This document shows positions 4,046 to 22,828 of a stretch of 22,828 nt of DNA, in pieces (the stretch's first letter is position 1; the number at the start of each line of letters is the position of its first letter). Location of the stretch: positions 1 to 22,828 of IMG/VR virus record IMGVR_UViG_3300009127_000032; one strand, given 5' to 3'. Under the pieces are notes generated by a model that did not search any database, was not told where the DNA came from, and worked only from the letters and a program-made list of their open reading frames with translations. The DNA is from a virus. Position numbers and translations under genes: made by a program.

Positions 4046-4684
4046 TTAAGGAGCAGTTGTTGTGGTTGTTGAACTGGTTGTGGTTGTGGTATTGGTACCG
4101 TCATTCCAAACGATTCGGCCCAAAGGCATACCATCCCAGATAATATGTCCGCCGGTGACTTCCGAGTCGGCACGTTTTGATTCGATGGTGATTGCAACAG
4201 CCGCCGGTTCCTCGGAAGCAAAATCCACTTCTGTATTCGCAACAACCTGCGCTCTCGGGAATATGATGGTCATTGTGTTGGTCCCATCCGGATAGGTGTA
4301 AACAGCTTCCATCCGAATCACTTCAGGGGTGGAAACGGTTCCCAACGGCAACGCACCTGTATGGGCTGCGGAGTAGTCGTCCGGATCGAGACCTCTGGCA
4401 AGGGCCATGTTTTTGGGTGTGATCTCCTTAAATGCCAATTCAAGGGACGCTGCCTCCCTCAAAGGAAACACAGCATCCTCCAGAAGGGGAAACCCGGACT
4501 CCAGTTTGAAGAAGTCGGTGTTTCCCACAAATCTGGTGGAGGCCAGTGCTCCCACCGAGTTAGCAGCAGCAAGGATTGGGGCAACCTGCCCGATGTAGGT
4601 TGCAGAAGCCCCTATCACTCGGATCTGAGCTAACCCCAATGCAATTGTCGTGGTGTCTTTTGTTACTGGACCTGTTCTGGGCAT
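4046..4684 (-). CDS. Major tail tube protein with poly-Thr C-terminal tail
   Basis: 212 residues from ATG 4684, behind AAAGGAGG spaced about 6 nt. By size and position, just before the chaperone pair and tape measure, it is the tail tube subunit that polymerises around the tape measure. The middle holds alternating hydrophobic beta-type segments and conserved-looking acidic loops (ARGLDPDDYS). The last 14 residues are low-complexity: five Thr, Ser-Ser, five Thr, Ala-Pro. The same tail ends the connector protein at 6454-7137 and, without the final Pro, the capsid protein at 8033-9448. The assignment rests on synteny and length; I see no family-defining motif. Confidence 0.8.
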   Translation of the reverse strand: MPRTGPVTKDTTTIALGLAQIRVIGASATYIGQVAPILAAANSVGALASTRFVGNTDFFKLESGFPLLEDAVFPLREAASLELAFKEITPKNMALARGLDPDDYSAAHTGALPLGTVSTPEVIRMEAVYTYPDGTNTMTIIFPRAQVVANTEVDFASEEPAAVAITIESKRADSEVTGGHIIWDGMPLGRIVWNDGTNTTTTTSSTTTTTAP

Positions 4685-6453: not shown

Positions 6454-7137
6454 CTATGGAGCAGTAGTTGTTGTGGTACTTGAACTGGTTGTAGTAGTCG
6501 TGGTTGTAGTAGTACAAGCCGGTCGGCTGTCTTCCACAACCTTACACACATCCACGCCGTTGAATCGATTCCGAAGAACCGTTTCTACTTTGTAGTACTC
6601 ATCCGATACGATACGAATCCGATCATTGACTTCAATTCCAACTGAGGAAGCGATATACAACTCCCCAACAAAAACGTCATAGAAAGCAATCTGTTGGTCT
6701 GTTTCAAGATCAGTCCCAAAAAGAGGGTCCGAGAGAAGGGCATTGACATCCGCCGCAACAGTAGTCCACTCCGTAACCTTATGGTATGTCTGCGTAGGCC
6801 AATCATCTTCCGAAGGACGCTTGACATCAACAACCACATTGGTCTTATACATAACTGCGGAGTAGTAGCTAACGGAATTCTCAAACATGTTGGGAGTCGT
6901 GGACATCAACATGTATTTGATTCCCGAAACATCTACTTGGATTATTTCACCGACTTCGGCAGGATAATCACTCGGGAGCATCAATTCAATAAAGTGTTCC
7001 CGAATAAAAGGCTTTGTGACCTGAGCGTTCAAGTCATACTTAATGTAATTGCCGGTAACATTGCCAGAATCCCTAAGTATGGTTGTAGCAACGCCAGCCT
7101 CTATGATTGCGTCCTTGACATCTAATGCGATAGACAT
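6454..7137 (-). CDS. Putative head-closure/connector protein with poly-Thr tail
   Basis: 227 residues; ATG 7137 overlaps the preceding stop (TAATG). The body is beta-rich with a central acidic stretch, and the gene lies between the putative head-tail adaptor and the gp10-like protein, where a stopper or head-closure protein usually stands. The last 19 residues are nine Thr, three Ser, five Thr, Ala-Pro. This matches the tail-tube and capsid tails in pattern, but uses different codons (ACT-rich here, ACC/ACA/ACG-rich in the capsid gene). Function is inferred from order only. Confidence 0.6.
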   Translation of the reverse strand: MSIALDVKDAIIEAGVATTILRDSGNVTGNYIKYDLNAQVTKPFIREHFIELMLPSDYPAEVGEIIQVDVSGIKYMLMSTTPNMFENSVSYYSAVMYKTNVVVDVKRPSEDDWPTQTYHKVTEWTTVAADVNALLSDPLFGTDLETDQQIAFYDVFVGELYIASSVGIEVNDRIRIVSDEYYKVETVLRNRFNGVDVCKVVEDSRPACTTTTTTTTTSSSTTTTTAP

Positions 7138-8032: not shown

Positions 8033-9448
8033 TTAGGCGGTGGTGGTTGTGGTCGAACTGGTTGTTGTGGTTGTGGTTGTGGTCGTCGTTGTGGTCGTCG
8101 TTGTGGTAGCTGACTGACCAGTGGTCGCCGTAACATCAAGGATATAGACCGCATCCCGTTGCATAAGAACGGGCAAGCCTTTATCCTGAACACGGACCCA
8201 CAATCCTTCCGGATCCCACGCAGGTTTCTTGTCGGTGAATTTGCCATAGTGACGCTCCAAGCCAAACGGTGCACGTTTGTACTTGGAAATGGGCTGACCG
8301 TCAACATGGGACGCAAACATGATGAATTTATCGTCCGCAATGTACGGTGTCACCATGGTGACGAAGTCCTCCCCTGCCTTATACGAACTGGCCGGGGGAT
8401 AGGCGACTTGAATTCTGGAACCTTCGGTATCGATGCTGATGATGTACCGTTCCTCATAAGTCCCCGCACTCTGATCGTTAAATCGGAGCAACTCGGCGGT
8501 CTTGAAATCTTCCACCTTGTCAACGAAAACCCATGTGGTGGAACCACCAGTCACGGCGGCTGTCAACCAAGCACGGATCTCATACATTTCATCGAAGACC
8601 ACAAAGTTTTCGATGTCCAGAAGCCCTCCAATAATGGACGGATTGACACCGATCAGTTCATGGATACCAGAAGCAGAACCTCCAGTACCATTGAACAGGC
8701 GACCATCTCCAAAATAATTCTTCTGAAGAAGCTGCCGGATCGTGGTGTCGTTTGCCAGATGTTTCAGCACCTGGGAATTGAAAATGGCGTAATTGGGAAC
8801 TGCCCCACACGCCTTTTTGACCTTGATCTTGGCGTCCTGAATGTCCTTGAGGATGTTTCGGCTTGAACCCGTATCCCAATAATAATCACTCGTCAAGGAG
8901 ACGATATGATCAGACGGAATCTGATAGTCCAAGGTCATTTTGTAACCACCCTGTACCTCATAGGTGATGGTACCACCGGAAAGCATCTGAGAGAACATCC
9001 ACTCCAGCCTTCGGTCGGAACGAGCCGATAATGCCGCCAGGTTGGTTGCGACCTTTTCGCGGGCCTCGTCGTAAACGGAATCGGTTCCGGGCTTGCGGAG
9101 ATTGTTGAGGAATTCCTCATCAAAATACATCTTCTCCTTCCAGTATGCCGCTTCCGCCCGGTGTTTCGCAAACCCAAACGGAGCAGTTACCGGGGCAGGT
9201 GCGCCGGGGGCAACAAACGGAGTCATTCCCCTACCACCACGCTGAGATTCCCACTTGATCGTGCTGGACGGAGAGTCGGAAACAGGAAACAGTTTCGAAA
9301 GCACCAACTCCGGGGGCTTCATGAAGGTAGTCATAAAATCCTGAATGACTTCCAACTTCAGATCCGGGATGTCTGCGCTTCCACGTGCAAACTGATTTAC
9401 ATCCACACCCATTTCGGCCAACATTTTAATAAGTTCGCTTTTCTTCAT
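8033..9448 (-). CDS. Major capsid protein (phage capsid E family) with long poly-Thr tail
   Basis: 471 residues from ATG 9448 behind GGGGAGGTG. The body fits the lambda gpE-type capsid family (HK97 fold): an N-terminal arm, a YWKEKMYFDEEFLNNLRKPG segment like the conserved region of that family, a long spine helix region (residues about 125-150), and a C-terminal half rich in FVDKVEDFKTAELLRF-type strands. It forms the head shell. The last 24 residues are sixteen Thr, Ser-Ser, five Thr, Ala. A short hairpin, CCCC-AAGA-GGGG, covers part of the ribosome site (about 9460-9471) and may limit initiation. Decoration and protease genes lie directly upstream, as in lambda. Confidence 0.9.
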   Translation of the reverse strand: MKKSELIKMLAEMGVDVNQFARGSADIPDLKLEVIQDFMTTFMKPPELVLSKLFPVSDSPSSTIKWESQRGGRGMTPFVAPGAPAPVTAPFGFAKHRAEAAYWKEKMYFDEEFLNNLRKPGTDSVYDEAREKVATNLAALSARSDRRLEWMFSQMLSGGTITYEVQGGYKMTLDYQIPSDHIVSLTSDYYWDTGSSRNILKDIQDAKIKVKKACGAVPNYAIFNSQVLKHLANDTTIRQLLQKNYFGDGRLFNGTGGSASGIHELIGVNPSIIGGLLDIENFVVFDEMYEIRAWLTAAVTGGSTTWVFVDKVEDFKTAELLRFNDQSAGTYEERYIISIDTEGSRIQVAYPPASSYKAGEDFVTMVTPYIADDKFIMFASHVDGQPISKYKRAPFGLERHYGKFTDKKPAWDPEGLWVRVQDKGLPVLMQRDAVYILDVTATTGQSATTTTTTTTTTTTTTTTSSTTTTTA

Positions 9449-13192: not shown

Positions 13193-15091
13193 TTAAGCGT
13201 AATTTCCTAACAGGCCAGTTCCAGGAACAAACGTACCGAAGTTCAATATGCCTTGTCTGATGCGGAAATCAGCCACAGACAGATTTCGTCCACCATATAT
13301 ACACCACGCATTAGCAAACATGAAGTCATCCTGCACTCCAGCGTTCTCTCCCTTTTCAGTGCTTCCAAACCACTTCTTGTTATCGTCATGATTGAACATA
13401 GCGAACTCTTCCTGAATGATATCTCTCTTTTTAACTCCAGGAACTCCCGTTGGGGGGCATTTGTATCTCCCATCCCTTACAGGCTCAAGAACCGCTTTGA
13501 AAGCTTCCTTCTGTTTATCATACGTAGGATGTATAGGTTGGAAGTCAATTCCCCGGTCGTCACACCACCCTTGAATATCCCAAGCACCGTAACGCTCCGA
13601 GCAAAGAACGTCCACTCCTTCAAACCCTGTATGAATAACATCCAGCTCCTGTTTGACAAGACCATGATCGTGCTTGTTAATAGCGGTAACATATAATACC
13701 AGGTATAGATAACGAGGATCGGACTGCCCTGCCACAAATTGGTAGGGGGAGGATCTACTTCCCGGTAGTCCCTTGGCAACGACTACCAGTATCGTCTTGG
13801 CAGGAGAGTTAAGGGCAAAAGGATCCCCAAAGTCAACTCCAGCCATCAATGCAAAATGGGTATCAAACACGTCCGTCAAATTCTGAAACGATAAGAAGTC
13901 CGGAACACACGGAGCATTGAATTCGCTTATATGGTAAAGATTCTCGACAGACTTCAACCGATCATTATATGCATCTACTCGGAATGTAGCATCCTGTATT
14001 CGCCTAAACTTGGTATTGAGTCCCCTTCCCTTCAATTCCCCCAACACCTCTACAAGCTTATTCCTCTCAACCAATGTCTCCCTAATATCAGAGTGATTCA
14101 ATATCCCTCCATCACATCCAAGTATCCCCATCTCCTCAATCATCTCCGATGAAAACACTTGGTCGATACCTGCACTCCACAAATTCTGGAAGTACCGTTC
14201 GAACTCCCCAAAGGGAAACTTAACCTGATAATCTGACAACTGATCTTCCGTCATATTGGGATTCCAATAATCCAATAAATCAGCATCAGTCGAACACCGG
14301 TATGAAAAGAAGACCGCCTTGGTCTTCCCTAAAGTAAAGTTTTCATACAACCGGTACAAAACATGCAGTTTGGATGATACCGTAGAATCGATCACACCGA
14401 GGGCATTGGGAATGTTACGAATAGATCCATCAAGCTGAGTAAAGAATTTCGGTTTCTTCATGTCAAATATCTCGGAGAACGTATACCCCGTAATATTAGA
14501 CACGATACCACTAAAAGATGAGATACTGCGAATCAGGGATTTAATGTCCCCATAATCGTCCTTCAGCCGTATCTCCTTCTCCTGTATATTCCCCCGAGGG
14601 CCGACCATCTCCATCAACCGGGGACTGTTGATGATAATATCCCTCATAATATCAAAGTGAACGAACTTAACCTGGTCTTTCGAGTTAGCACCAAGCATGA
14701 TCTGTTGACGCGGCCAGTTGAAAAACTTCCACAATTGTATTAAGACCGCTAATAACGACTTCCCTTCACCACGCATCCAACAGAAGATAAGCAACCGGTA
14801 TACGAACTCTCCATCTTCCATTCGTAAGGCTTCCCGGAGTATCTCCTGCTGCGCCTCCCACATCTGTTTATATGATTTTTTGGTCTTAGGATGTAAGGTA
14901 TCCGGCAACTCCCCTAACAAACACCATTCCGAATACAACGCTTTCCCATCCTCATTGATCGGATATATAGGAACACAGACATGGGTATTACACCAATCTA
15001 TCATCCCCTCCGCCCCGTCCCTATAATCTCCCGGAACATAAACCCTTGGAGCATGGGCCTCTATAGTCCGTTTACTTAGAAGGAGTTCCAT
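13193..15091 (-). CDS. terL: Terminase large subunit
   Basis: 632 residues from ATG 15091, which has GGAGG nine nt upstream. A start at ATG 15139 is possible, but GGGAG there touches the ATG. ATPase part: Walker A variant WMRGEGKS (about 105-112), a Walker B-like TFSEIFDM (about 204-211) and a coupling motif-like VIDST. Nuclease part: VDFGDP (419-424; Asp420 likely metal ligand), a second acidic site near VDVLCSERYGAWD, and QDDFMFANAW (587-596), the usual last Asp of the RuvC-like fold. It packages DNA into the prohead and cuts it. It overlaps the small subunit gene by 20 nt. The 151 nt to the portal gene are AT-rich. Confidence 0.92.
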   Translation of the reverse strand: MELLLSKRTIEAHAPRVYVPGDYRDGAEGMIDWCNTHVCVPIYPINEDGKALYSEWCLLGELPDTLHPKTKKSYKQMWEAQQEILREALRMEDGEFVYRLLIFCWMRGEGKSLLAVLIQLWKFFNWPRQQIMLGANSKDQVKFVHFDIMRDIIINSPRLMEMVGPRGNIQEKEIRLKDDYGDIKSLIRSISSFSGIVSNITGYTFSEIFDMKKPKFFTQLDGSIRNIPNALGVIDSTVSSKLHVLYRLYENFTLGKTKAVFFSYRCSTDADLLDYWNPNMTEDQLSDYQVKFPFGEFERYFQNLWSAGIDQVFSSEMIEEMGILGCDGGILNHSDIRETLVERNKLVEVLGELKGRGLNTKFRRIQDATFRVDAYNDRLKSVENLYHISEFNAPCVPDFLSFQNLTDVFDTHFALMAGVDFGDPFALNSPAKTILVVVAKGLPGSRSSPYQFVAGQSDPRYLYLVLYVTAINKHDHGLVKQELDVIHTGFEGVDVLCSERYGAWDIQGWCDDRGIDFQPIHPTYDKQKEAFKAVLEPVRDGRYKCPPTGVPGVKKRDIIQEEFAMFNHDDNKKWFGSTEKGENAGVQDDFMFANAWCIYGGRNLSVADFRIRQGILNFGTFVPGTGLLGNYA

Positions 15092-15677
15092 TACCCAAGG
15101 CCTCCGCCTCCATCTTGGAGTAGTAAGTAACGTGTCCATCTCCCGCTTTCTTCATACCCAAAGGCGGACGTTTACCCTTCTTCTTACGTGGTCCCAAAGG
15201 ACTATGAGGATCAGGGAACTCCGATATACCGATACTCTTCCACGTATCCTCGATAATCTTGATCTGCTGCCGAAACTCCTTAAAGATCGGATGCATAGCA
15301 ATCCCTCCCCGAGGACCGTGGACAGTAACCTGCTCCACCCCTACCATAGCAATCTTCAGCTTACATAAGACATTATACAATGGGATAAGATGCATCCCTA
15401 CCCTGTACAAATCCGACTCCGACAGCTCCTCCTTGAAGTTCCTGATAATAATTTCGGTGATTACTTCCATATACTCGGTCTGTACTCCGCACTTACTTCC
15501 AACCTCCTTACCATGATGGCACATATTCATTGCCACACAAGGATTTGGATGAAACGCAGTACAATCCGGTATAATCTCCCATGTGTTAAACAGGTTGTTA
15601 ATGGTATAAAACTCTCCCTTCCTTATCATTAACTTCCCGTGGTTCTCTCTAAATTTGGGGGGAAATACATGTGCCAT
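15072..15677 (-). CDS. Terminase small subunit (P27-like)
   Basis: 201 residues from ATG 15677, behind AAGGA spaced 9 nt. The C-terminal half has GGIAMHPIFKEFRQQIKIIEDTWKSIGIS, which fits the P27-type small terminase pattern (N/HP..KE.R.Q...I...W..LGI), and then a basic PRKKKGKRPPLG segment for DNA contact. The N-terminal half is unusual in having several Cys/His residues (PNPCVAMNMCHHGKEVGSKCG), which could bind a metal. It is the first gene of the late operon, 80-100 nt downstream of the predicted promoter. It recognises the packaging site and recruits the large subunit. Confidence 0.75.
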   Translation of the reverse strand: MAHVFPPKFRENHGKLMIRKGEFYTINNLFNTWEIIPDCTAFHPNPCVAMNMCHHGKEVGSKCGVQTEYMEVITEIIIRNFKEELSESDLYRVGMHLIPLYNVLCKLKIAMVGVEQVTVHGPRGGIAMHPIFKEFRQQIKIIEDTWKSIGISEFPDPHSPLGPRKKKGKRPPLGMKKAGDGHVTYYSKMEAEALGNGTPSK

Positions 15678-15763
15678 GGATAAAATTCCTTGTCCTTAAA
15701 AGATGTACATCGAGTAGATTATGAGTCCACAATCGGGAAAACAACATAACTTCCACATAACAA

Positions 15764-15793
15764 TTCATAACAAAAACCACACATCCCTGTCAA
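15764..15793 (-). promoter_or_regulatory. Late operon sigma-70-type promoter
   Basis: On the minus strand TTGACA (15793-15788) is followed, after 17-18 nt, by TTATGA/TATGAA (15770-15764). A start near 15757 would leave an 80-nt leader before the small terminase gene. The -35 is perfect and the -10 is imperfect. Three AACATAA-like boxes at 15743-15770 cover the -10 and start region, as a repressor site would. Confidence 0.6.
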
Positions 15794-16075
15794 GTACTTT
15801 TAATTTTCGCCCCGTAAGAGTTCTACTAAGTGATGGATAGGTTAAAACGATAAACAATGGGGATTACTATGTATTCTTTAATTTGCCCACTCCGTAGTCC
15901 ATTTAATCTTATTGACAGGCGGGGATGTCGTTGATGAGTCAGGGAGGGGGTTAAAGTACCGTTTTTATATGGGTGGTGGGATAAAACACTTTCTGGAGAA
16001 GTGTGGAAAAAATTTTATGGTGGGTACCCCCGGCCAGACGACAAAGGGGCGGCTTCAAAGTAAATCGAGGGGCCA

Positions 16076-16476
16076 CCTCATAATATGTAGGGGCTATCCT
16101 CATTATTTGATGCATCATTTGTGCATATCCCTGCACATATAGTGCAAAAGTTTACATAATACATGTTATCAGACATTGTACCTCAAACTATGTAGATGAT
16201 ATAATTGTGTTACCTCAAACTATGTAGATACTACAAATTATGAGGATGTGTTACGATATGAAACAGTGTATCGAAATGTAACATATGTCTACGCACAAGT
16301 CATCAATTCCCAAACTCTGTAGCCCTACTACACAAAATGTCGAAAACATCCTCATAATATGTAGCTGTATCGAAACGTAACACTACGTACAAATCATGCT
16401 GCCCTACATACTATGATGTTTATGCTACAAACTATGTGGTCTACATCTTTTGTAGTTTTTTCTACATAGTTTGTAG
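16076..16476. repeat. Cluster of 15-bp dyads CTACA/CCTCA-N5-TGTAG/TGAGG
   Basis: Seven exact copies of a dyad with 5-bp arms and 5-bp spacer start at 16076, 16181, 16213, 16231, 16350, 16441 and 16462. One-mismatch-arm copies start at 16098, 16308, 16328, 16404 and 16425. The two half-site types, CTACA and CCTCA, mix freely, and the spacer varies (AACTA, TAATA, AATTA, TCTTT, TAGTT). Copies 16425-16439 and 16462-16476 also form a larger perfect 14-bp inverted repeat (16424-16437/16464-16477). This looks like an array of binding sites for a dimeric protein. Confidence 0.85.
16267..16382. repeat. 17-bp direct repeat within the dyad cluster
   Basis: TGTATCGAAATGTAACA (16267-16283) and TGTATCGAAACGTAACA (16366-16382) differ at one base and are 99 bp apart. 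Each lies just 3' of a group of dyads. The first is also the right half of an interrupted palindrome with TGTTACGATA at 16248-16257. Iteron or regulator site; function not known. Confidence 0.75.
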
Positions 16477-16579
16477 CAGGATGCCCGTTTTCGTATAGCT
16501 ACATTGTATACAAATAGTAGCTACTTGAATTTTTATATATAAGTATATCAATACGTTATGCATTTTACTATAATAGTAT

Positions 16580-16622
16580 AACATAATTCTAACATAACAT
16601 TGCCATAAACTGCCTTTCATAA
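16580..16622. repeat. Phased AACATAA-like boxes upstream of the sigma-54 promoter
   Basis: AACATAA at 16580 and 16591, GCCATAA at 16602 and TTCATAA at 16616, spaced 11, 11 and 14 bp. Related boxes overlap the late promoter (15743, 15754, 15764) and, in reverse orientation, the early promoter (ATGTT at 18409, 18420, 18432). Phasing near one helical turn suggests cooperative binding on one DNA face. Confidence 0.65.
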
Positions 16623-16651
16623 CACGCTGAAATGATAAGTCTTTTATATGT

Positions 16652-16669
16652 TTGGCACAACAATTGCTT
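16652..16669 (+). promoter_or_regulatory. Sigma-54 (-24/-12) promoter
   Basis: TTGGCACAACAATTGCTT matches the sigma-54 consensus TGGCAC-N5-TTGC exactly at the key GG and GC, with the required 12-nt GG-to-GC spacing. Transcription would start near 16679, so the next gene starts at ATG 16741 with a leader of about 62 nt. Sigma-54 promoters need an ATP-driven activator bound upstream; the dyads and phased boxes upstream are candidate sites. No activator gene is seen in the window. Confidence 0.85.
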
Positions 16670-16684
16670 ATAAAAGAAAGCAAT

Positions 16685-16737
16685 GCCCGTACTGGGCAGA
16701 AACACATAGCAGCCTCAAAAGAGGCGAAAGGCAGGGC
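16685..16737 (+). promoter_or_regulatory. Two leader hairpins before the sigma-54 gene
   Basis: GCCC (16685-16688) pairs with GGGC (16694-16697), and GCCTC-AAAA-GAGGC (16712-16725) forms a second hairpin. GCCC could instead pair with GGGC at 16734-16737, which overlaps the weak ribosome site before ATG 16741. A translation switch is possible but weakly supported. Confidence 0.4.
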
Positions 16738-16740
16738 AAC

Positions 16741-17157
16741 ATGTCAAAAGCAGCTAACAAAAAAAGAGTGAAAGTAATTCGACAGAAAGGCAATGATCGC
16801 AGAGGGCGTTACTGTCGTTACGCTACGGCAGTCAAGAACGTGCCATCGTTCAAGACGTTTGAAGAAGCCTCAGAATGGCTGAACGGCGTCGGGGCGAAAG
16901 TCAACAGGCCCATTACAGCGGCATTAGATCGTGCCTTGATTAACACTTCAGACGGGCTTACGGCTGAAGAATTGATGGCAGTTGCTTCAGCTTGCATGGG
17001 CAAATCAGGCTCATGCAAAAAACACTTCAAAGATTTCAGACGGCCATCGCAAATTAAAGCCTTTATTCGGCATCGTACTGTTACTTTGAAACGGGCTTAC
17101 GTGCTCGACGAAAATTGCCTTGAAAACGAACGTTACAGTTTCATCGGCAAACTGTAA
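16741..17157 (+). CDS. Small protein paralogous to the C-terminal domain of the 20631-21404 protein
   Basis: 138 residues from ATG 16741 (MSKAANKKRVKV...). A longer frame starts at 16648, but that lies upstream of the predicted transcription start. The N-terminus is basic (KKRVKVIRQKGNDRRGRYCRY). The rest aligns with the C-terminal region of the early protein at 20631: F.TF.....WL, P.TA..DR.LI, T..E, K.F and KAFI.HR in the same order. The gene stands alone between the sigma-54 promoter and a strong terminator, with dyad arrays on both sides. The basic N-terminus suggests nucleic acid binding. The family is not recognised. It could be a DNA-binding regulator or replication protein acting on the dyads, but that is inference. 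Confidence 0.85.
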   Translation: MSKAANKKRVKVIRQKGNDRRGRYCRYATAVKNVPSFKTFEEASEWLNGVGAKVNRPITAALDRALINTSDGLTAEELMAVASACMGKSGSCKKHFKDFRRPSQIKAFIRHRTVTLKRAYVLDENCLENERYSFIGKL

Positions 17158-17164
17158 AAATCTG

Positions 17165-17225
17165 GCCTGTATCTGACAGGCTGAAACTGAAAATGCCCTA
17201 TGGCGAAAGCTGTAGGGCATTTTTT
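17165..17225 (+). terminator. Intrinsic terminator after the sigma-54 gene
   Basis: An 11-bp stem, TGCCCTATGGC (17194-17204) with GCTGTAGGGCA (17209-17219, two G-U pairs), closes a GAAA tetraloop and is followed by six T. A smaller hairpin, GCCTGT (17165-17170) with ACAGGC (17176-17181), precedes it. It ends the gene 8-68 nt after its stop. Confidence 0.92.
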
Positions 17226-17304
17226 GTGGCTGAATTCGAACTGTAGCCTTTTAAAAACAGGGTGAAATAAAAAAGCCATAGCAGAGTATGCCCTAAAACT
17301 ACTA

Positions 17305-17460
17305 TGCCGTTTTGGCCTATGCCAAATTGGCGGTGTTAAAAAGTTTAATAGTCTAAAATGGCCTATGCCATTTTGGGGTATGTGCCAAAATAGAGTATTA
17401 AAACTTTTAAAGTGCCACAAAGTGATATCATCAAAATATGCAGGTGTGCCATTTTGGCAT
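17305..17460. repeat. Second palindrome family, TGCCATTTTGGCA
   Basis: A perfect copy lies at 17447-17459. Close copies lie at 17305 (TGCCGTTTTGGCC), 17320 (TGCCAAATTGGCG) and 17366 (TGCCATTTTGGGG). Half-sites lie at 17355, 17383 and 17413. They sit just downstream of the terminator and differ from the CTACA/CCTCA dyads, so a second dimeric binding protein is likely. Confidence 0.75.
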
Positions 17461-17979
17461 ACTTCAAAGTTTTGAGGAAGCAGATCGATTCAAGGTGATT
17501 TTAGGGATGAGGTCTTACTATCGGGTTTTTAGCGGGGTCAGGAGCAGGTATTTGGTTATTGTCATATAGGGAGTGACCTCCCAGCCTTTGTTATCCTTAG
17601 CTATCTTGAATCCGGCTCTATACGATCTGCTTTCAGGTATGGTTAGGGAGGCATTGTTGATGGTCTTTGGATAGAGTGGAGCTGTTATCTGGGTCTTACT
17701 GGACAGTGAGTTGGGAGAGGGATTGGTCGTATTCGGGGATTGACGTGGATCTTATTAGGTTGATCGGTTAGGGACTGCGGTAGGGATGTCGTTAACCCCG
17801 TATGATAGGACTTGGGATTGGATGTCTATCCTTATGACCAAAGACCTTAATAGTTATTTATACTACCTGATTGTCGGGGATTGGTTGCGGATAGAGTGGA
17901 TGTTGGTAAGGGATGTAGTTGATTTGTTGTCTACCTGACATGTGAGGTAGTATGCTACCTGGACTTATGGATTATGCAT

Positions 17980-18016
17980 CCTCATTATTTGAGGACGTAT
18001 GCTACATGTTTTGAGG
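17980..18016. repeat. Two further CTACA/CCTCA dyads
   Basis: CCTCA-TTATT-TGAGG (17980-17994) and CTACA-TGTTT-TGAGG (18002-18016) match the dyad family of 16076-16476 exactly. They lie about 1.5 kb away, on the far side of the sigma-54 gene, 22 bp apart. A protein bound at both clusters could loop the DNA between them. Confidence 0.8.
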
Positions 18017-18180
18017 ATTGATTAGAGTGGTCTTGATTAAGGAGTGGGGTTATAGTGCACCTTAGGGTATGGGATATTGTCTCCTGATAATGGGAATCTG
18101 TTGTTCCTTGATCAGGTCAGGTGCATGGATAGCAGGATGTAGTATCCGAGATTGGGCGTTATCTTGGAGGGATTGACATC

Positions 18181-18256
18181 TCCCTTATATATCCTGTGTT
18201 ATTATGCTGGATGTTAATATCCCTTATATCCGTTGTATAATGCCTTGGGATATAGT
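18181..18256. repeat. Imperfect 39-bp tandem repeat
   Basis: TCCCTTATATATCC starts at 18181 and TCCCTTATATCC at 18220. Each is followed by a GTT(A/G)TATTATGC/GTATAATGC-like stretch and a GGGAT or GGAT. It is AT-rich, with no gene. The similarity is moderate. Confidence 0.45.
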
Positions 18257-18398
18257 TTTTTAATATCTGGGAGAGGCGTGGGAGTAGGGAGTTCAGCGTG
18301 TTTGTATCAATCCTCTTACTGTGTTTTATCCCAATAAGTGCAGTTAATTCAGAAACTTAGAAAAATTACCGAGAAGTGAATAGAAAAGATGGGTATGA

Positions 18399-18441
18399 CA
18401 TAACTTTTATGTTGACTTTATGTTATTTTTAATGTTATAAT
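18399..18441 (+). promoter_or_regulatory. Early operon sigma-70 promoter with phased boxes
   Basis: TTGACT (18412-18417), 18 nt, TATAAT (18436-18441). Start near 18448. ATGTT repeats at 18409, 18420 and 18432 (11 and 12 bp apart), plus CATAAC at 18399, cover the -35 and spacer. These are the reverse complement of the AACATAA boxes at the other two promoters, and are placed as a repressor site would be. Confidence 0.85.
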
Positions 18442-18464
18442 GTAGTTCAAGGAGTAAGAAAGAC

Positions 18465-18797
18465 ATGATAGCAAAACCTCAAACTGACAGCCCCAAGGAT
18501 TCGCGTAGGGGCTTTGCTGTTTCATTCGGCCTGTGTGGCGGATGCGACAGAGCAGGTTTTGCACTGGCTGAAAAGCCTGGTGAGGTGGCCTGTAGTATTA
18601 ATAAGGCCGAGGATGAGGGGCATCTGCTGCAATCCTTCTACTGCCCCAATAAGCCGCGTCGATGCGGGATACAGTGCGCTGACTCTTGCAGGTCAGATAG
18701 TCTCAATGAGGAAGCCCTCGTGAAATGTGCGGAGAGCGATAGCGAGGTACGAATCATGCTTAGTGGCGAAGGTATGCCCGCCCACGGAGCCCATTAG
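18465..18797 (+). CDS. Possible cysteine-rich small protein at the head of the early operon
   Basis: 110 residues from ATG 18465, with AAGGAG 10 nt upstream and very close to the predicted transcription start. It has eight Cys (LCGGCD, FYCPN, CGIQCADSC), which could bind zinc, and an acidic composition. Against it: the stretch has overlapping open frames and many short perfect hairpins (for example AGCCCC/GGGGCT at 18489-18514, GGGGCA/TGCCCC at 18617-18647, GGCT-GAAA-AGCC). It may therefore be part of a structured RNA. I recognise no family. Coding and RNA roles are about equally likely. Confidence 0.4.
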   Translation: MIAKPQTDSPKDSRRGFAVSFGLCGGCDRAGFALAEKPGEVACSINKAEDEGHLLQSFYCPNKPRRCGIQCADSCRSDSLNEEALVKCAESDSEVRIMLSGEGMPAHGAH

Positions 18798-19200
18798 GAA
18801 GTAAGCCCAATCTGAGGCGTTCAAGGATACGCCTGTGCAAGATGGCAGAAAATCCGAAAAACAGCGGCCTGTAGCACCCGCCCTGAGTGCAGAAAGACAG
18901 GTTGCCCCAATCCCCGCATGTCACGCAACCGGGCAGTGAAAGTCTGTCTGGCGTGGATTGGCCGAAAATCCGAGAAATTTTGATCTGAGAAAACCTGAGT
19001 TGATATCGGATGAGTAGTTATGAAAGGGTATGCCAAATCTGTTAGAATCCCTCATTCTGGCAGAGAAATTAGGATGCCCCGATAATCCGTCTTCTTACTC
19101 GAAATGCCGAGTCGAATCCATAAAGTGCGACCATGATGGCGTAGCGAGCAGGGTGTGACTCCCTGCCAAGACCTGCTTTTCAAGTCGAGAACACGAGGAC
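18798..19200 (+). ncRNA. Candidate structured RNA (extent approximate)
   Basis: Noncoding stretch in the early transcript with many nested stems. AGGCGT/ACGCCT is at 18815-18834. CCTGT/ACAGG (18868-18901) encloses GCAC/GTGC. GGTTGC/GCAACC is at 18900-18930, and CCAATCC in its loop pairs with GGATTGG at 18955-18961, a predicted pseudoknot. ACTCG/CGAGT is at 19097-19112 and GCAGGG/CCCTGC at 19148-19166. It might start as early as 18450 and continue to 19366. In place and density it recalls large phage RNAs such as GOLLD or ROOL, but I see no sequence proof of either. No tRNA was recognised inside. Confidence 0.4.
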
Positions 19201-19218
19201 GAGGATACTCATTTCTTA

Positions 19219-19386
19219 CTTACCTCCGTCTTACATCATGTGGCTATGACCTGTTATGCCTAATAACAGTAGCCACGTGGTGTGGGATTTTGCGAGACCA
19301 GACAGTATGTTGGTCTTGCTTCTGGCTGTATAACCTGATATGTTGTGCGACCAGAAGCAAGACTAACCCCAAACAAAGGAGGTAAG
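19219..19386 (+). promoter_or_regulatory. Predicted three-way RNA junction hiding a ribosome site
   Basis: CTTACCTCC (19219-19227) is the exact complement of GGAGGTAAG (19378-19386), the ribosome site of the gene at 19389. Between them are two strong hairpins. One is a 13-bp stem (19234-19246/19270-19282, with G-U pairs) topped by TGTTAT/ATAACA. The other is a 16-bp stem (19310-19325/19351-19366, one G-U). AGACCA (19295-19300) can instead pair with TGGTCT (19311-19316), breaking the second stem. Together they make a three-way junction with a possible switch. A ligand, protein or temperature signal is unknown. Confidence 0.6.
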
Positions 19387-19388
19387 AC

Positions 19389-19763
19389 ATGTACAACGCA
19401 TTAGGAATCGATGATGTATTGTGGGATGAAATTAAAGCGCAATTTGGTCACATCAATTTGAATGACCCGATGCCCAAAGCTGTTGATCCCACTTTTGTTA
19501 AGCGTGTAGTATTTCAGGAGACGGACATTGAAATCCTTATGGCTTATGCCGAGACTTGGGATCCTATCAACGTGCTGTTCCTCGTCAATGACGAAGTTCA
19601 GTCCTTTTACTATGATCCTGATCATGATGATAGACATAATCCCGAGTTCATCAAGGAGATGGGCGTGATTTGTGGATTCTTGTTCAATGCCCGCCAGAGT
19701 TTGTTAACCGTGTTTCTGGCAGATTTCACCATGTTCAAGAACGAAGTTTTCGGGGATAAATAG
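19389..19763 (+). CDS. Unknown early protein, 124 residues
   Basis: Starts at ATG 19389 directly behind AAAGGAGGTAAGAC. The protein is soluble and acidic, with helical segments (DVLWDEIKAQFG, EILMAYAETW), a DPDHDDRHNPEF stretch and a hydrophobic C-terminal half (FLFNARQSLLTVFLADF). It is the first gene of the early series that carries the shared leader, and its ribosome site is the one predicted to be hidden by the upstream RNA fold. I do not recognise a family. Confidence 0.85.
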   Translation: MYNALGIDDVLWDEIKAQFGHINLNDPMPKAVDPTFVKRVVFQETDIEILMAYAETWDPINVLFLVNDEVQSFYYDPDHDDRHNPEFIKEMGVICGFLFNARQSLLTVFLADFTMFKNEVFGDK

Positions 19764-19775
19764 TAGCTCCTTTTG

Positions 19776-19803
19776 ATGGCGTATGCCTATTTGGATACGC
19801 CAT
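19776..19803 (+). promoter_or_regulatory. Intergenic hairpin
   Basis: Perfect 9-bp stem, ATGGCGTAT (19776-19784) with ATACGCCAT (19795-19803), without a T tract. It may protect or separate the two coding parts of the transcript. Similar perfect stems lie before 21490 and 22130. Confidence 0.6.
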
Positions 19804-19836
19804 GACGAGGATTTACTCTAACAAAGGAGGTAAGAC

Positions 19837-20097
19837 ATGATTAAAATAGGTACGCCCACCTCATTGGGCATGCGAGTGCCGGGGATGATCATTTATGGCA
19901 GTCCCGACCACGTTGGCTTTGAGGTCTTTGATGCAACAGGTATTGATACCCCAATGCCCACAGCATACGCCTTGATGCAGGTGTGCTTCATGGATGTCGA
20001 TTACGACGACGCACCTGAAGCATGGCTTGAAATGGCACGGATCGACACCTGGCGGCTGATACTTGCCCTGCGAGAAAGCAGGAGAGACATTTACTAA
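19837..20097 (+). CDS. Unknown early protein, 86 residues
   Basis: ATG 19837 follows GGAGGTAAGAC. The protein has a short N-terminal strand-rich part (MRVPGMIIYGSPDHVGFEVFDATG), then an acidic loop (MDVDYDDAPEAW) and a C-terminal helix (ARIDTWRLILALRESRRDIY). It has no membrane segment or known motif. It sits between two other small leader-bearing genes, so it is likely an early host-takeover or regulatory protein, but that is only by position. Confidence 0.8.
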   Translation: MIKIGTPTSLGMRVPGMIIYGSPDHVGFEVFDATGIDTPMPTAYALMQVCFMDVDYDDAPEAWLEMARIDTWRLILALRESRRDIY

Positions 20098-20121
20098 CAC
20101 CCCATAACAAGGAGGTAAGAA

Positions 20122-20298
20122 ATGCTGGATTTGGATTACATTAAAATTGTGATGGCAAGGATGTTTATTTACATGATGTTTGGATCGGGAATGGCGGCTG
20201 TCATTCTCCTTTGCCCTGTGCCTATGTGGTGGCCCTGCCTCGCGGTTGTAGTTGCAAGCGGGATTGCCGTAAATGCACTTGACTACCTGATCCCATAG
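20122..20298 (+). CDS. Small membrane protein, 58 residues
   Basis: ATG 20122 follows GGAGGTAAGAA; stop TAG at 20296. The protein is very hydrophobic, with one span over about residues 14-33 (IYMMFGSGMAAVILLCPVPM) and a second over about 36-52 (WPCLAVVVASGIAVNAL), and only a short charged N-terminus. A two-span inner-membrane protein is likely. The next ribosome site (AGGAGG) overlaps its stop codon, so the following gene is coupled to it. Function unknown; holin-like size, but early position and lack of a lysin neighbour argue against a lysis role. Confidence 0.78.
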   Translation: MLDLDYIKIVMARMFIYMMFGSGMAAVILLCPVPMWWPCLAVVVASGIAVNALDYLIP

Positions 20299-20308
20299 GA
20301 GGATGAAC

Positions 20309-20533
20309 ATGGCAAGATGCAAGCACCTTAACAGCTTGGGATATCAGTGCAATCAAAAATGTGCTTCCGAGACAAATGACAGCGCAGATGTGGTGAGGGT
20401 ATTCACTAAAGGAATACATATGACCACAGGCTACATGGCAAGAGTAGAAAGGACAGACCACAAGTCTGGTCTATGCGCCTTTCATATGAGAATGGAGAAA
20501 GAAATCAGCAAAAGAGGAGGCTGGAAGAGGTAA
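20309..20533 (+). CDS. Small Cys/His-rich protein
   Basis: 74 residues from ATG 20309, which is 6 nt after AGGAGG; an ATG at 20303 touches that site and is less likely. It begins MARCKHLNSLGYQCNQKC and ends with CAFHMRMEKEISKRGGWKR. C4, H6, C14, C18 and the late C/H could bind zinc. The C-terminus is basic. The gene lacks the shared leader; translation probably follows on from the membrane protein gene. No family recognised. Confidence 0.72.
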   Translation: MARCKHLNSLGYQCNQKCASETNDSADVVRVFTKGIHMTTGYMARVERTDHKSGLCAFHMRMEKEISKRGGWKR

Positions 20534-20630
20534 TGCGTTGTTCCCCTTGGGGGATTGAGAGAAATCTTGATCCTTCACGGGGCATTTCGCCCATTAACCA
20601 ACAACCCACATTACTAAAGGAGGTAAGACA

Positions 20631-21404
20631 ATGGGTAAGCAAAGTAAAGAGAGAAAGGAACTGGTAAAGGCGATTGCGGAACTCGATCCGAACTTCGATC
20701 CCAAAGGCTGGAAAGTGCCAGGATTGAAAGACAAGCTGGAAGCCCTCAAGGCCCAACCGGCCCCCATCACGTCCGAGGAGACTGAGGACGATGCGGGGAA
20801 CGGGGACAGCACGAAGGACGAGCCGAAGGTTGATCACGGCAAACTGTGCCTGACCAAAGCATTCGGCAAGGATCAGGACTCCAAGCTGTGTGAAAAGTGT
20901 TTCAAGACACAGGTCGACACCTACGGAGCCTGCTCCGATGCCATCAAAGCGGCCGGAGCGGCGAAGAAGGACAAGCCCCTGGATCCCTCTACGGCAACGG
21001 TAGCCCGTGGAAATCGCTTCGTTCGATTCAAGGGACACGTCAATCCGCCCAAGTTCAATACGTTTGATCAGCGGGTTGCATGGCTGACGGAGAACAGCCA
21101 CGTGGTCGTGCCTTTCACTGCCACCATGGACCGTCTGCTCATTCAGGGACACACCCTGCAGGAAATGGTCGACTTCATAAAAGCCCTGCGGGACAGTGAG
21201 CCGGATTGGAAAGATCACAAGGAGTTCCGCACGAAGGGCTCCTGCAAGGCGTTCATTAAACATCGGGTGAACGTTGTCGGCCTGGAAGTGCAAGTCACCG
21301 GCGATCATTACAAAGCGGTAGGGCTGATCGGCAAGAAAGCCGGTAAGTTCACCGTGATGGAAGTCGAAAAAGCGGCCCCGGAAGAGGAGAAGAAAGCCGC
21401 GTAA
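20631..21404 (+). CDS. Early three-part protein, C-terminal domain shared with the 16741-17157 protein
   Basis: 257 residues; ATG 20631 is one nt after GGAGGTAAGAC. Residues 1-45 are helical (KQSKERKELVKAIAELDPNF, LKDKLEALKAQ) and resemble short SAP-like helical folds. Residues 46-75 are an acidic linker. Residues 76-115 have three Cys (CLTKAF, LCEKCFK, GACSDA), possibly a metal site. Residues about 123-225 match the small protein at 16741: F.TF....AWL, P.TA.MDR.LI, T..E, K.F, KAFI.HR. The C-terminus is Lys/Glu-rich. The GC content looks higher than in neighbouring intergenic DNA. It may be a nucleic-acid binding regulator or replication protein; not recognised. Confidence 0.85.
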   Translation: MGKQSKERKELVKAIAELDPNFDPKGWKVPGLKDKLEALKAQPAPITSEETEDDAGNGDSTKDEPKVDHGKLCLTKAFGKDQDSKLCEKCFKTQVDTYGACSDAIKAAGAAKKDKPLDPSTATVARGNRFVRFKGHVNPPKFNTFDQRVAWLTENSHVVVPFTATMDRLLIQGHTLQEMVDFIKALRDSEPDWKDHKEFRTKGSCKAFIKHRVNVVGLEVQVTGDHYKAVGLIGKKAGKFTVMEVEKAAPEEEKKAA

Positions 21405-21423
21405 ACTGGAGTTTTCACTGGTA

Positions 21424-21453
21424 GGGACATAAGCGAAGGAGGGTTTATGTCCC
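21424..21453 (+). promoter_or_regulatory. Intergenic hairpin
   Basis: GGGACATAA (21424-21432) pairs with TTATGTCCC (21445-21453), a perfect 9-bp stem. The loop contains GAAGGAGGG, itself Shine-Dalgarno-like. There is no T tract, so it is not a clear terminator. Confidence 0.6.
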
Positions 21454-21489
21454 TCACAGTACAAACCCCAAACCAAAAGGAGGTAAGAT

Positions 21490-21684
21490 ATGATGAATAA
21501 AGCCGCGAAGGTGATTCCGTATCCTGCGGAAGAACAAACCGTCATTGTCAAGAGGTCGTATCTTGAACGGTTAGAAAACCTGTTGCTTCACGCAACATGG
21601 GAAAACATTCAATTGCGGAGATCATACAACGAGGTAATCACCAAAGGACATTATGTTGCCCCGGATGGCACTGTGACAAGGTAA
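21490..21684 (+). CDS. Small early protein, 64 residues
   Basis: ATG 21490 follows GGAGGTAAGAT; a second ATG follows at once at 21493, but the leader fits 21490 like the other genes. The middle is helical and amphipathic (SYLERLENLLLHATWENIQLRRSYNEVI), suggesting a short coiled coil or a protein-binding helix. The C-terminus (YVAPDGTVTR) is polar. No family recognised. Its stop overlaps the ribosome site of the next gene (TAAAGGAG). Confidence 0.78.
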   Translation: MMNKAAKVIPYPAEEQTVIVKRSYLERLENLLLHATWENIQLRRSYNEVITKGHYVAPDGTVTR

Positions 21685-21694
21685 AGGAGAAGTC

Positions 21695-21844
21695 ATGAAT
21701 GAGGAAATCAGTACCATTCACATTGGTGTGGACTACTTTGACAGACAATATGTTATGGTCTGTACAGAGGAAGCCCCTGAAATGTATCCAGAATTCGCTC
21801 CTGGCCCACCTGAGGGCGAGGAAGACTTCTGGGGGAAGTCTTGA
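21695..21844 (+). CDS. Small acidic protein, 49 residues
   Basis: ATG 21695 behind AAAGGAG, which overlaps the preceding stop. The protein is very acidic and Pro-rich in its second half (EEAPEMYPEFAPGPPEGEEDFW). Strong negative charge and small size are common in phage proteins that mimic DNA or block host factors, but nothing here proves that. Its TGA overlaps the next start (TTGA). Confidence 0.68.
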   Translation: MNEEISTIHIGVDYFDRQYVMVCTEEAPEMYPEFAPGPPEGEEDFWGKS

Positions 21845-22017
21845 AGGTCTACAAACTCAATTTGAATCGGGCAGACAATCCCAAAATCTATGAGATCAAA
21901 CCCGAAGACTACCATTACCTCAAGAACAATTACAAGTATGTATCCGGACGTTCGGATCGCATCTTGTACTGGAGAGTAATGCGTTACTTCCGTAGAATTG
22001 TAGGCGATGATAAGTAG
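21841..22017 (+). CDS. Small basic protein, 58 residues, TTG start
   Basis: Starts at TTG 21841, overlapping the stop of the upstream gene by four nt (TTGA), with a GGGGG-AAG stretch just upstream. The frame ends at TAG 22015. The protein is basic and aromatic (DYHYLKNNYKYVSGRSDRILYWRVMRYFRRIV). It is translationally coupled to a strongly acidic partner, so the two may bind each other, or form an antitoxin/toxin-like or anti-host pair. That is only a charge-based guess. Confidence 0.65.
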   Translation: MKVYKLNLNRADNPKIYEIKPEDYHYLKNNYKYVSGRSDRILYWRVMRYFRRIVGDDK

Positions 22018-22036
22018 GACGCGCACTGTGCGCTGA

Positions 22037-22086
22037 GGTGGTACAAGTCTAAGGGTTAGCTGCCCCGGACATGGGCTTGTACCACC
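22037..22086 (+). promoter_or_regulatory. Intergenic hairpin
   Basis: GGTGGTACAAG (22037-22047) pairs with CTTGTACCACC (22076-22086), a perfect 11-bp stem. The loop of 28 nt holds GCCCC...GGGC, which can form an inner stem. A short palindrome, GCGCACTGTGCGC (22021-22033), precedes it. It lies before the DUF932 gene leader, without a T tract. Confidence 0.65.
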
Positions 22087-22129
22087 AAGGAGCAGTTTGC
22101 TCGACAACCCCACAAATAGGAGGTAAGAC

Positions 22130-22828
22130 ATGTGTAATGTATCCAAGGAAGAGGAGAAAGACATGGTGGCAGAGATCCGCGAACGTTATCCCGATGTCGC
22201 ATGGCCGGAAGTCAGCGCGGAGAAGCTGCAACTGGCAGGATGGCATGACATGCCCGCCATTCCCGGTAGGGTGGCAAATGTGATCTGGGAGAAGGACCCC
22301 GAAACGATGGAAGACACTCCCCGAGTTGTCGGCGTCCGTTCGGATGAATACAAGTTCATCCGGTATGAAGTCCTCACGAAGAAGTTCGAGGAAGTCATTG
22401 ATCGTTACGAAGGAGCCTTTGGCAAACCGCTGTTTGACTTTGCCTTTCCCAAAGACGGTGGCCGTTTTCTGTGCAACGTGGATTTCCCTGAAATGGTAAA
22501 GCCTGTCAGAGAGAATGGACCCAAGGTCGGCCAGGATATTTCACCCCGGTGTGGCTTCAAGTCAAGTCTGGACATGTGTTGGGAATACGCTACGTTCATC
22601 GGAGCCATTCGCCTGGTGTGCACCAACGGCATGGTGGCCTACCAGATCGAATCCCAGATGAACAAAAAACATCGACAGACGCTGGATGTGGACGAGATCA
22701 ACGAACATGTGATTCCCACACTGGACAGATTCGATGAACAGGTCGCCATATGGGGAGCATGGGCGGAGACGGAGTTCACAGCACTTCAAACGGAGAAGCT
22801 CGTGGACGCCCTGCCATTTGGGAATCGC
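22130..22828 (+). CDS. DUF932 (phage/plasmid-like) protein, 3' end outside the window
   Basis: ATG 22130 follows GGAGGTAAGAC; the frame is open to the window edge (233 codons). It contains LVCTNGMVAY at about residues 168-177, the hallmark of the DUF932/TIGR03299 phage-plasmid protein family, preceded by GFKSSLDMCWEYATFIGAIR. The N-terminal part includes EVSAEKLQLAGWHDMP and a DRYEGAFGKPLFDFAF stretch. DUF932 genes are common in early regions of phages and in plasmids; their function is not settled, and links to recombination or replication are suggested by context. The rest of the family's length is expected beyond the window. Confidence 0.85.
   Translation, partial: MCNVSKEEEKDMVAEIRERYPDVAWPEVSAEKLQLAGWHDMPAIPGRVANVIWEKDPETMEDTPRVVGVRSDEYKFIRYEVLTKKFEEVIDRYEGAFGKPLFDFAFPKDGGRFLCNVDFPEMVKPVRENGPKVGQDISPRCGFKSSLDMCWEYATFIGAIRLVCTNGMVAYQIESQMNKKHRQTLDVDEINEHVIPTLDRFDEQVAIWGAWAETEFTALQTEKLVDALPFGNR

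Follow-up and report, generated by a model that had tools for sequence, protein, structure and literature searches.

The noncoding region ahead of the rightward operon

The DNA that we analyzed, referred to here as the window, is the IMG/VR virus record IMGVR_UViG_3300009127_000032, 22,828 bases in length. Its structural genes, among them those for the major head protein (8033-9448) and the terminase large subunit (13193-15139), run leftward, and the rightward genes begin at 19389. Between the two sets, at 17158-19388, we found no convincing gene. We take the rightward operon to be probably early, judging only from its small genes that diverge from the head genes; its conserved members include proteins with DUF932 and DUF2786 domains, both of unknown function. 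The first gene of this operon (19389-19763, plus strand) encodes 124 amino acids with no PHROG or significant Pfam match. Two paralogous genes (16648-17157 and 20631-21404; 36% identity over 94 residues) lie on either side of the region described below and likewise have no significant Pfam or PHROGs match. Three structural proteins encoded on the minus strand (4046-4684, 6454-7137 and 8033-9448) all carry Thr/Ser-rich tails of one type (TTTTTTTSSSTTTTTAP).

A sigma-70-type promoter, TTGACT-18-TATAAT with an extended -10 element, is present on the plus strand at 18412-18441. It matches 11 of 12 consensus positions, ranks first among the 15 matches in 15600-22828, and is kept with small changes in L002, the diverged relative introduced below; the consensus promoter pointed out in an earlier reading of the sequence alone (hereafter the sequence-only reading) is thus a strong one. 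From its position we expect a transcript to start at about 18447, and this predicted transcript contains no gene of its own between the promoter and 19388. The 0.9 kb just 5' of the promoter (17450-18330) is strongly G+T-rich on the plus strand, with a GC skew of +0.3 and an AT skew of about -0.2; it is noncoding and partly alignable with L002, with no excess of covariation.

Inside the predicted RNA there is one open frame (18465-18797, plus strand), which the sequence-only reading had already doubted. Codon-position and frameshift tests against L002 show that it is not a gene: substitutions are spread evenly over the three codon positions (18/18/19), indels of -1, -2 and -1 shift the frame, and the first 57 codons contain 15 amino-acid changes, where 15.5 ± 2.0 would be expected in the absence of constraint. 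The neighboring real gene at 16648, which served as a control, accumulated 26/14/60 substitutions in the same comparison, mostly at third codon positions. We therefore rejected a protein-coding reading of this frame.

Conservation and structure of the RNA

The RNA region is carried by an identical phage represented by an 80-kb contig (L001), and by one diverged relative, L002, whose terminase is 87% identical. Exact-pattern scans of viral contigs identified the RNA region in no phage other than the window phage and L002, and the same two were the only finds when the loci collected for comparison were searched with a profile HMM and a covariance model built from the core. A DNA search of phage and plasmid records with the core yielded only chance matches of 24-26 nt, and two genome-contig hits (L091 and L092) were rejected as 18-mer chance matches. 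Between the window and L002, the segment 18447-19290 is more conserved (70-95%) than its flanks. Scored per 60-nt block, identity is 70-95% across 18447-19232 vs 37-88% in the flanks, the upstream flank being mostly at 37-80% and reaching 88% locally. Within the domain, 18450-18780 is approximately 70-88% identical, and the 3' half (18780-19232, plus strand) is the most conserved part, at 87-95% with long identical blocks.

RNAalifold predicted 238 base pairs from the alignment of the window with L002, of which 14 were changed on both sides. In 100 controls, in which the same substitutions were relocated within 60-column blocks, there were 3.9 ± 1.9 such double-compensated pairs (maximum 9), and the consensus energy was -208 ± 8 as compared with the observed -265.9. 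The opposite strand gave -220.3 and 9 pairs in the same test, so the sense strand is the better of the two. For 18447-19232 the consensus energy had a z-score of -5.5, with 12 double compensatory pairs vs 4.7 ± 2.1 in relocated-substitution controls; as with the other results for this domain, the comparison is between two independent sequences, the window and L002. When the covariation test was applied per region, both 18447-18790 and 18790-19232 were positive. The coding control gene at 16648 was negative (z -0.1), as was the upstream segment 17400-17860; the segment 17860-18410 reached z -2.7, yet had fewer double changes than its control. Because there was no excess of covariation, we rejected the homologous upstream stretch (17400-18410) as a structured RNA.

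We are highly confident that 18447-19232 is a real structured RNA: a conserved domain of approximately 786 nt on the plus strand, closed by a helix that we call P1 and supported by both conservation and compensatory changes. The proposal of a large noncoding RNA at 18450-19366 in the sequence-only reading is borne out by this conservation, by compensatory changes above the control level, and by the absence of coding constraint. That reading had named third-position change in 18465-18797 and a lack of covariation beyond it as the pattern that would speak against an RNA; we found no third-position bias in the frame, and 18790-19232 was positive for compensatory change.

The clearest individual element is a hairpin at 18523-18544 (plus strand) with four compensatory base pairs, CAUUCG/CGGAUG in the window and CUCCGU/GCGGGG in L002. 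Further hairpins that are clearly compensated relative to L002 are those at 18929-18951, in which one A-U pair became U-A, and at 19148-19166. The former is enclosed by a plus-strand stem, CCAATCC/GGATTGG (18907-18961), whose two arms (18907-18913 and 18955-18961) had previously been proposed to form a pseudoknot. The pairing itself stands, with no difference in L002, but the consensus structure contains it as a plain nested stem rather than a pseudoknot, and because it is invariant it gains no support from covariation. Downstream of the domain are two terminal hairpins on the same strand. The first (19235-19281) has two compensatory pairs, U-G to G-U and U-A to G-C. The second (19309-19367) has 26-nt arms that are 81% complementary; it is not followed by a T-run and is therefore not a typical terminator.

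Two other structural claims of the sequence-only reading did not survive. Among the consensus hairpin loops there is no GNRA tetraloop, and the stem density is not exceptional: in single-sequence folding, 300-nt segments within 18450-19199 were no better than shuffles (z approximately 0), the core 18447-19232 reached z -1.84, and the z of -4.5 for the whole stretch came largely from the 3' hairpins at 19235-19281 and 19309-19366. Because single-sequence folding alone would miss the structure, it is the comparative evidence that carries the RNA reading.

A covariance-model search against Rfam, suggested in the sequence-only reading, was run on the window and returned no match at the gathering threshold, nor any in 17200-19450 at E <= 10; accordingly, neither GOLLD nor ROOL was matched, in line with the impression that the sequence is not recognizably theirs. 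Searches at gathering and permissive thresholds were also negative for the related loci L021 and L111, and a search of nine relatives at the gathering threshold identified no known family for the RNA. No tRNA genes were detected in the window or in the related loci searched.

An antisense copy of the operon's ribosome-binding site

Thirteen rightward genes, counted on the extended contig L081, begin with a ribosome-binding site (RBS) of stereotyped form, either GGAGGTAAGA(A/C/T)ATG or a closely similar sequence, and the leftward structural genes use other RBS types. Among the rightward genes (19389-22283, and L081/L113) we also observed a repeated intergenic module that consists of a hairpin, a CA-rich stretch (AACCCCAAAC), AAAGGAGGTAAGA and ATG. 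Near the 3' end of the structured domain, within a stretch that is fully identical in L002, is an element on the plus strand that we term the anti-RBS (CATTTCTTACTTACCTCC, 19210-19227). Its segment CTTACCTCC is antisense to GGAGGTAAG in all 13 of the rightward genes counted, and its segment CATTTCTTAC is antisense to GTAAGAAATG in 6 of the 13. These matches are beyond chance, as 0 of 300 shuffles of the RNA reached them (9- or 10-mers). The motif GGAGGTAAGTAAGA by itself is no proof of such an element, because some unrelated phages use GGAGGTAAGTAAGA(TA)ATG as the genuine RBS of a gene; motif hits in L094 and L097 were excluded since they serve opposite-strand genes as real RBSs.

The anti-RBS has two predicted partners. 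One is the 5' strand of P1 (GGAGTAAGAAAGACATG, 18451-18467, plus strand), an imperfect copy of the operon RBS and in this sense an anti-anti-RBS. The other is the Shine-Dalgarno (SD) sequence at 19378-19386, within the plus-strand segment AAAGGAGGTAAGACATG (19375-19391) that comprises the first rightward gene's RBS and start codon. When the full leader was folded, the anti-RBS paired with this SD at a probability of 0.96-0.98 over most of the SD, and when the SD was left out it paired with 18451-18467 at a probability of approximately 0.9 in most pairs, in both cases under energy models that are unreliable at 900 nt. P1 and SD sequestration are thus predicted to be mutually exclusive, and the 3' strand of P1 corresponds to an anti-SD, as in translational riboswitches. 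The predicted pairing of anti-RBS with SD encloses the two long hairpins at 19235-19281 and 19309-19366. In L002 a single A-U to G-U change in P1 leaves the pair intact, with no double compensation in this helix; the L002 sequence stops before the first-gene SD, and its comparison with the window covers the P1 half of the proposed alternative.

To score SD masking we used ensemble accessibility, as the longest-complement count did not discriminate between genes. The first-gene SD was the least accessible of all those tested in the window (0.00, rank 1 of 17) and in two more distant phages, L021 (0.00, rank 1 of 14) and G001 (0.03, rank 1 of 14). These ranks did not change when the context was set to 250 or 350 nt. 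At 150 nt, which cuts off the anti-RBS of the window phage, the masking was gone in that phage (0.40, rank 13 of 17) and was kept in L021 and G001.

The terminases of L021 and G001 are 55% and 53% identical, respectively, to that of the window phage, and both phages share orthologous operon genes with it (29-37% identity) as well as the same type of RBS. In each, a promoter is followed by a gene-free stretch of approximately 500-650 nt, an anti-RBS (CATATCTTACTTACCTACC in L021 and TTCTTACCTCTTACCTCC in G001), two strong hairpins and the first gene, in this order. In all three phages, the local structure of minimum energy is the one composed of anti-RBS, hairpin, hairpin and SD. The three leaders align with one another only at chance level, and the covariance model of the window core did not find those of L021 and G001. 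The antisense element of L021 reads CATAT where that of the window reads CATTT, which fits the ATATG and AAATG types of their respective RBSs, and CATATCTTAC of the L021 element fits 6 of 9 L021 RBSs. In G001 the first SD is GGAGGTGAT, which prefers another partner when the full leader is folded. The 5' anti-anti-RBS is clear in the window phage and L002, weak in L021, and was not found in G001. A fourth phage, L036, has its own stereotyped RBS (GGAGGTATGAGAAATG) in approximately eight genes (about 15959-20899, reverse strand); by eye it offered a 14/16 antisense-like match, but its first SD is not masked and we excluded it as a further case.

A candidate translational leader and its alternatives

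On the strength of the predicted pairings, we favor with moderate confidence the reading of 18447-19388 as a giant cis-acting leader that would switch translation of the rightward operon. This reading is based on the conserved structure, the lack of coding, the complementarity to the RBS, the predicted exclusive pairings, and the recurrence of the layout in two distant phages. The first approximately 786 nt of the leader, the conserved structured RNA closed by P1, would have the role of a sensor in a very large translational switch. With the domain folded and P1 closed, the anti-RBS would be occupied and the first gene translatable; with P1 open, the anti-RBS would capture the first-gene SD across the two hairpins and turn translation off. 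The switch may also reach genes that are translationally coupled to the first gene, and a phage or host factor would presumably decide between the two states. We infer that the pairings form in the cell and that they control translation with this polarity.

The same complementarity could instead serve a trans-acting regulator, an RNA that is either processed from the operon transcript or made alone and that silences the regulon by binding, through its tandem anti-RBS, the RBS common to at least a dozen genes at once. The matches of CTTACCTCC to 13/13 rightward RBSs and of CATTTCTTAC to 6/13, together with those of CATATCTTAC to 6/9 in L021, indicate that the anti-RBS follows each phage's RBS consensus; duplex energies average approximately -19 to -23 kcal/mol, and the operon RBS carries an extension, TAAGA, that we take to go beyond the region that pairs with 16S rRNA. 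We nonetheless consider such a regulator unlikely, because the anti-RBS lies where a cis action is possible, because either P1 or the first SD is predicted to occupy it, and because the masked SD belongs to the first gene. Its specificity is also modest, because predicted binding to some RBSs of the window's structural genes is about as strong (-20.3 and -22.4 kcal/mol). A phage acting on many early-gene RBSs has a parallel in T4, whose proteins RegB and RegA do so (PMC3014915), and the consensus of strong RegB sites, GGAGRAYARAA, loosely resembles the stereotyped RBS (PMC3014915); T4, however, uses an endonuclease and a repressor protein, whereas the candidate here is an RNA element. Alternatively, it could be a large ornate RNA that stands alone, in the manner of GOLLD or ROOL, and possibly one that assembles, as GOLLD does into a homo-oligomeric RNA cage, with the anti-RBS a by-product of the RBS-like 5' strand of P1. 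Its size, phage origin and closed domain would suit this, as would the greater conservation of its 3' half, which has also been reported for GOLLD (PMC12286853). To this we assign a low probability: Rfam gave no match even at E 10, no terminator precedes the operon, the anti-RBS is kept in L021 and G001 without the same P1 5' strand, and there are no tRNAs nearby, whereas GOLLD and ROOL often lie near tRNA islands (PMC12286853), for GOLLD a tendency rather than a strict requirement.

Effects at the level of transcription, or of the DNA itself, seem less plausible still. A processive antitermination or pausing element would be well placed right after the promoter of a many-kilobase operon. The L021 leader begins with GCTCTTTGAAAA (about 6441-6428, minus strand), which we regard as boxA-like and a possible antitermination signal. 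As inspection by eye revealed nothing resembling boxA in the leaders of the window phage or G001, and as the anti-RBS and the masked SD would be left unexplained, a transcription-level leader appears quite improbable. We give even less credence to a conserved DNA element, such as an origin, packaging or recombination site, or to a decayed gene. The large noncoding region does adjoin the terminase genes, and related phages have frame-poor stretches of 1-2.8 kb there; against these readings, compensatory changes exceed the control and are better on the plus strand, and there is neither coding constraint nor a pattern of decay.

The cis-acting leader that we favor combines features of several known systems. 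Like a translational riboswitch or autoregulatory leader, it lies 5' of the operon, the 3' strand of its P1 is an anti-SD, and P1 is predicted to exclude sequestration of the SD; it differs in having a sensing part of approximately 786 nt, two long hairpins between anti-SD and SD, and a phage operon as its target. Riboswitch aptamers are much smaller than this, and, within the scope of Rfam, the RNA does not belong to any known riboswitch class. With GOLLD it shares a phage origin, a length of approximately 800 nt, an elaborate structure and a more conserved 3' region (PMC12286853), and with ROOL (600-800 nt) a phage origin and structure. It differs from both in lacking an Rfam match and a tRNA island and in its position, running from promoter to operon with an anti-RBS that would mask the SD. 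The resemblance to GOLLD and ROOL that had been suggested thus extends only to a large, phage-borne, structured RNA. As for a possible new class, absence from Rfam and a structure supported by conservation and compensatory changes speak for novelty; the anatomy, an RNA between the promoter and the first operon gene that carries an antisense copy of the operon RBS, points to a leader or regulator rather than to a free-standing ornate RNA. A limited literature search turned up no description of such a leader. Judged by Rfam, this RNA represents a new class, and to our knowledge no RNA with this size, this position and this switch module together has been described.

A broader proposal, which we offer tentatively and consider less likely than not to hold in full, is that giant leader RNAs of 0.6-0.9 kb form a new class in phages, in which sequence-unrelated domains share a common end module of anti-RBS, two hairpins and SD. 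As the anti-RBS tracks the operon-wide RBS consensus, one RNA may then control a whole regulon both in cis and in trans. If the switch reading is correct, the phage would spend approximately 0.9 kb at the start of its operon on an RNA decision module, and the RBS stereotyped across the entire operon would have an RNA partner. We know of few structured phage RNAs of this size, and none of the RNAs GOLLD, ROOL and OLE is known to have a function that is well understood. In the present case a function is suggested by the anatomy itself, in which the closing helix of a giant RNA would compete with the operon SD. Layout, instead of sequence, could serve to screen more phages of this terminase family for the switch module.

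The noncoding regions of other relatives (L039/L080/L066, L059/L069 and L011/L017) gave no clear RNA signal. Eight relatives (L011, L017, L034, L036, L049, L059, L069 and L071) have 1.7-2.8 kb without long frames upstream of their terminase genes, and these stretches are mostly unrelated in sequence to one another. Upstream of the terminase in L059, L069 and L071 we identified 12 type-P5 twister ribozymes, located on the minus strand at several sites.
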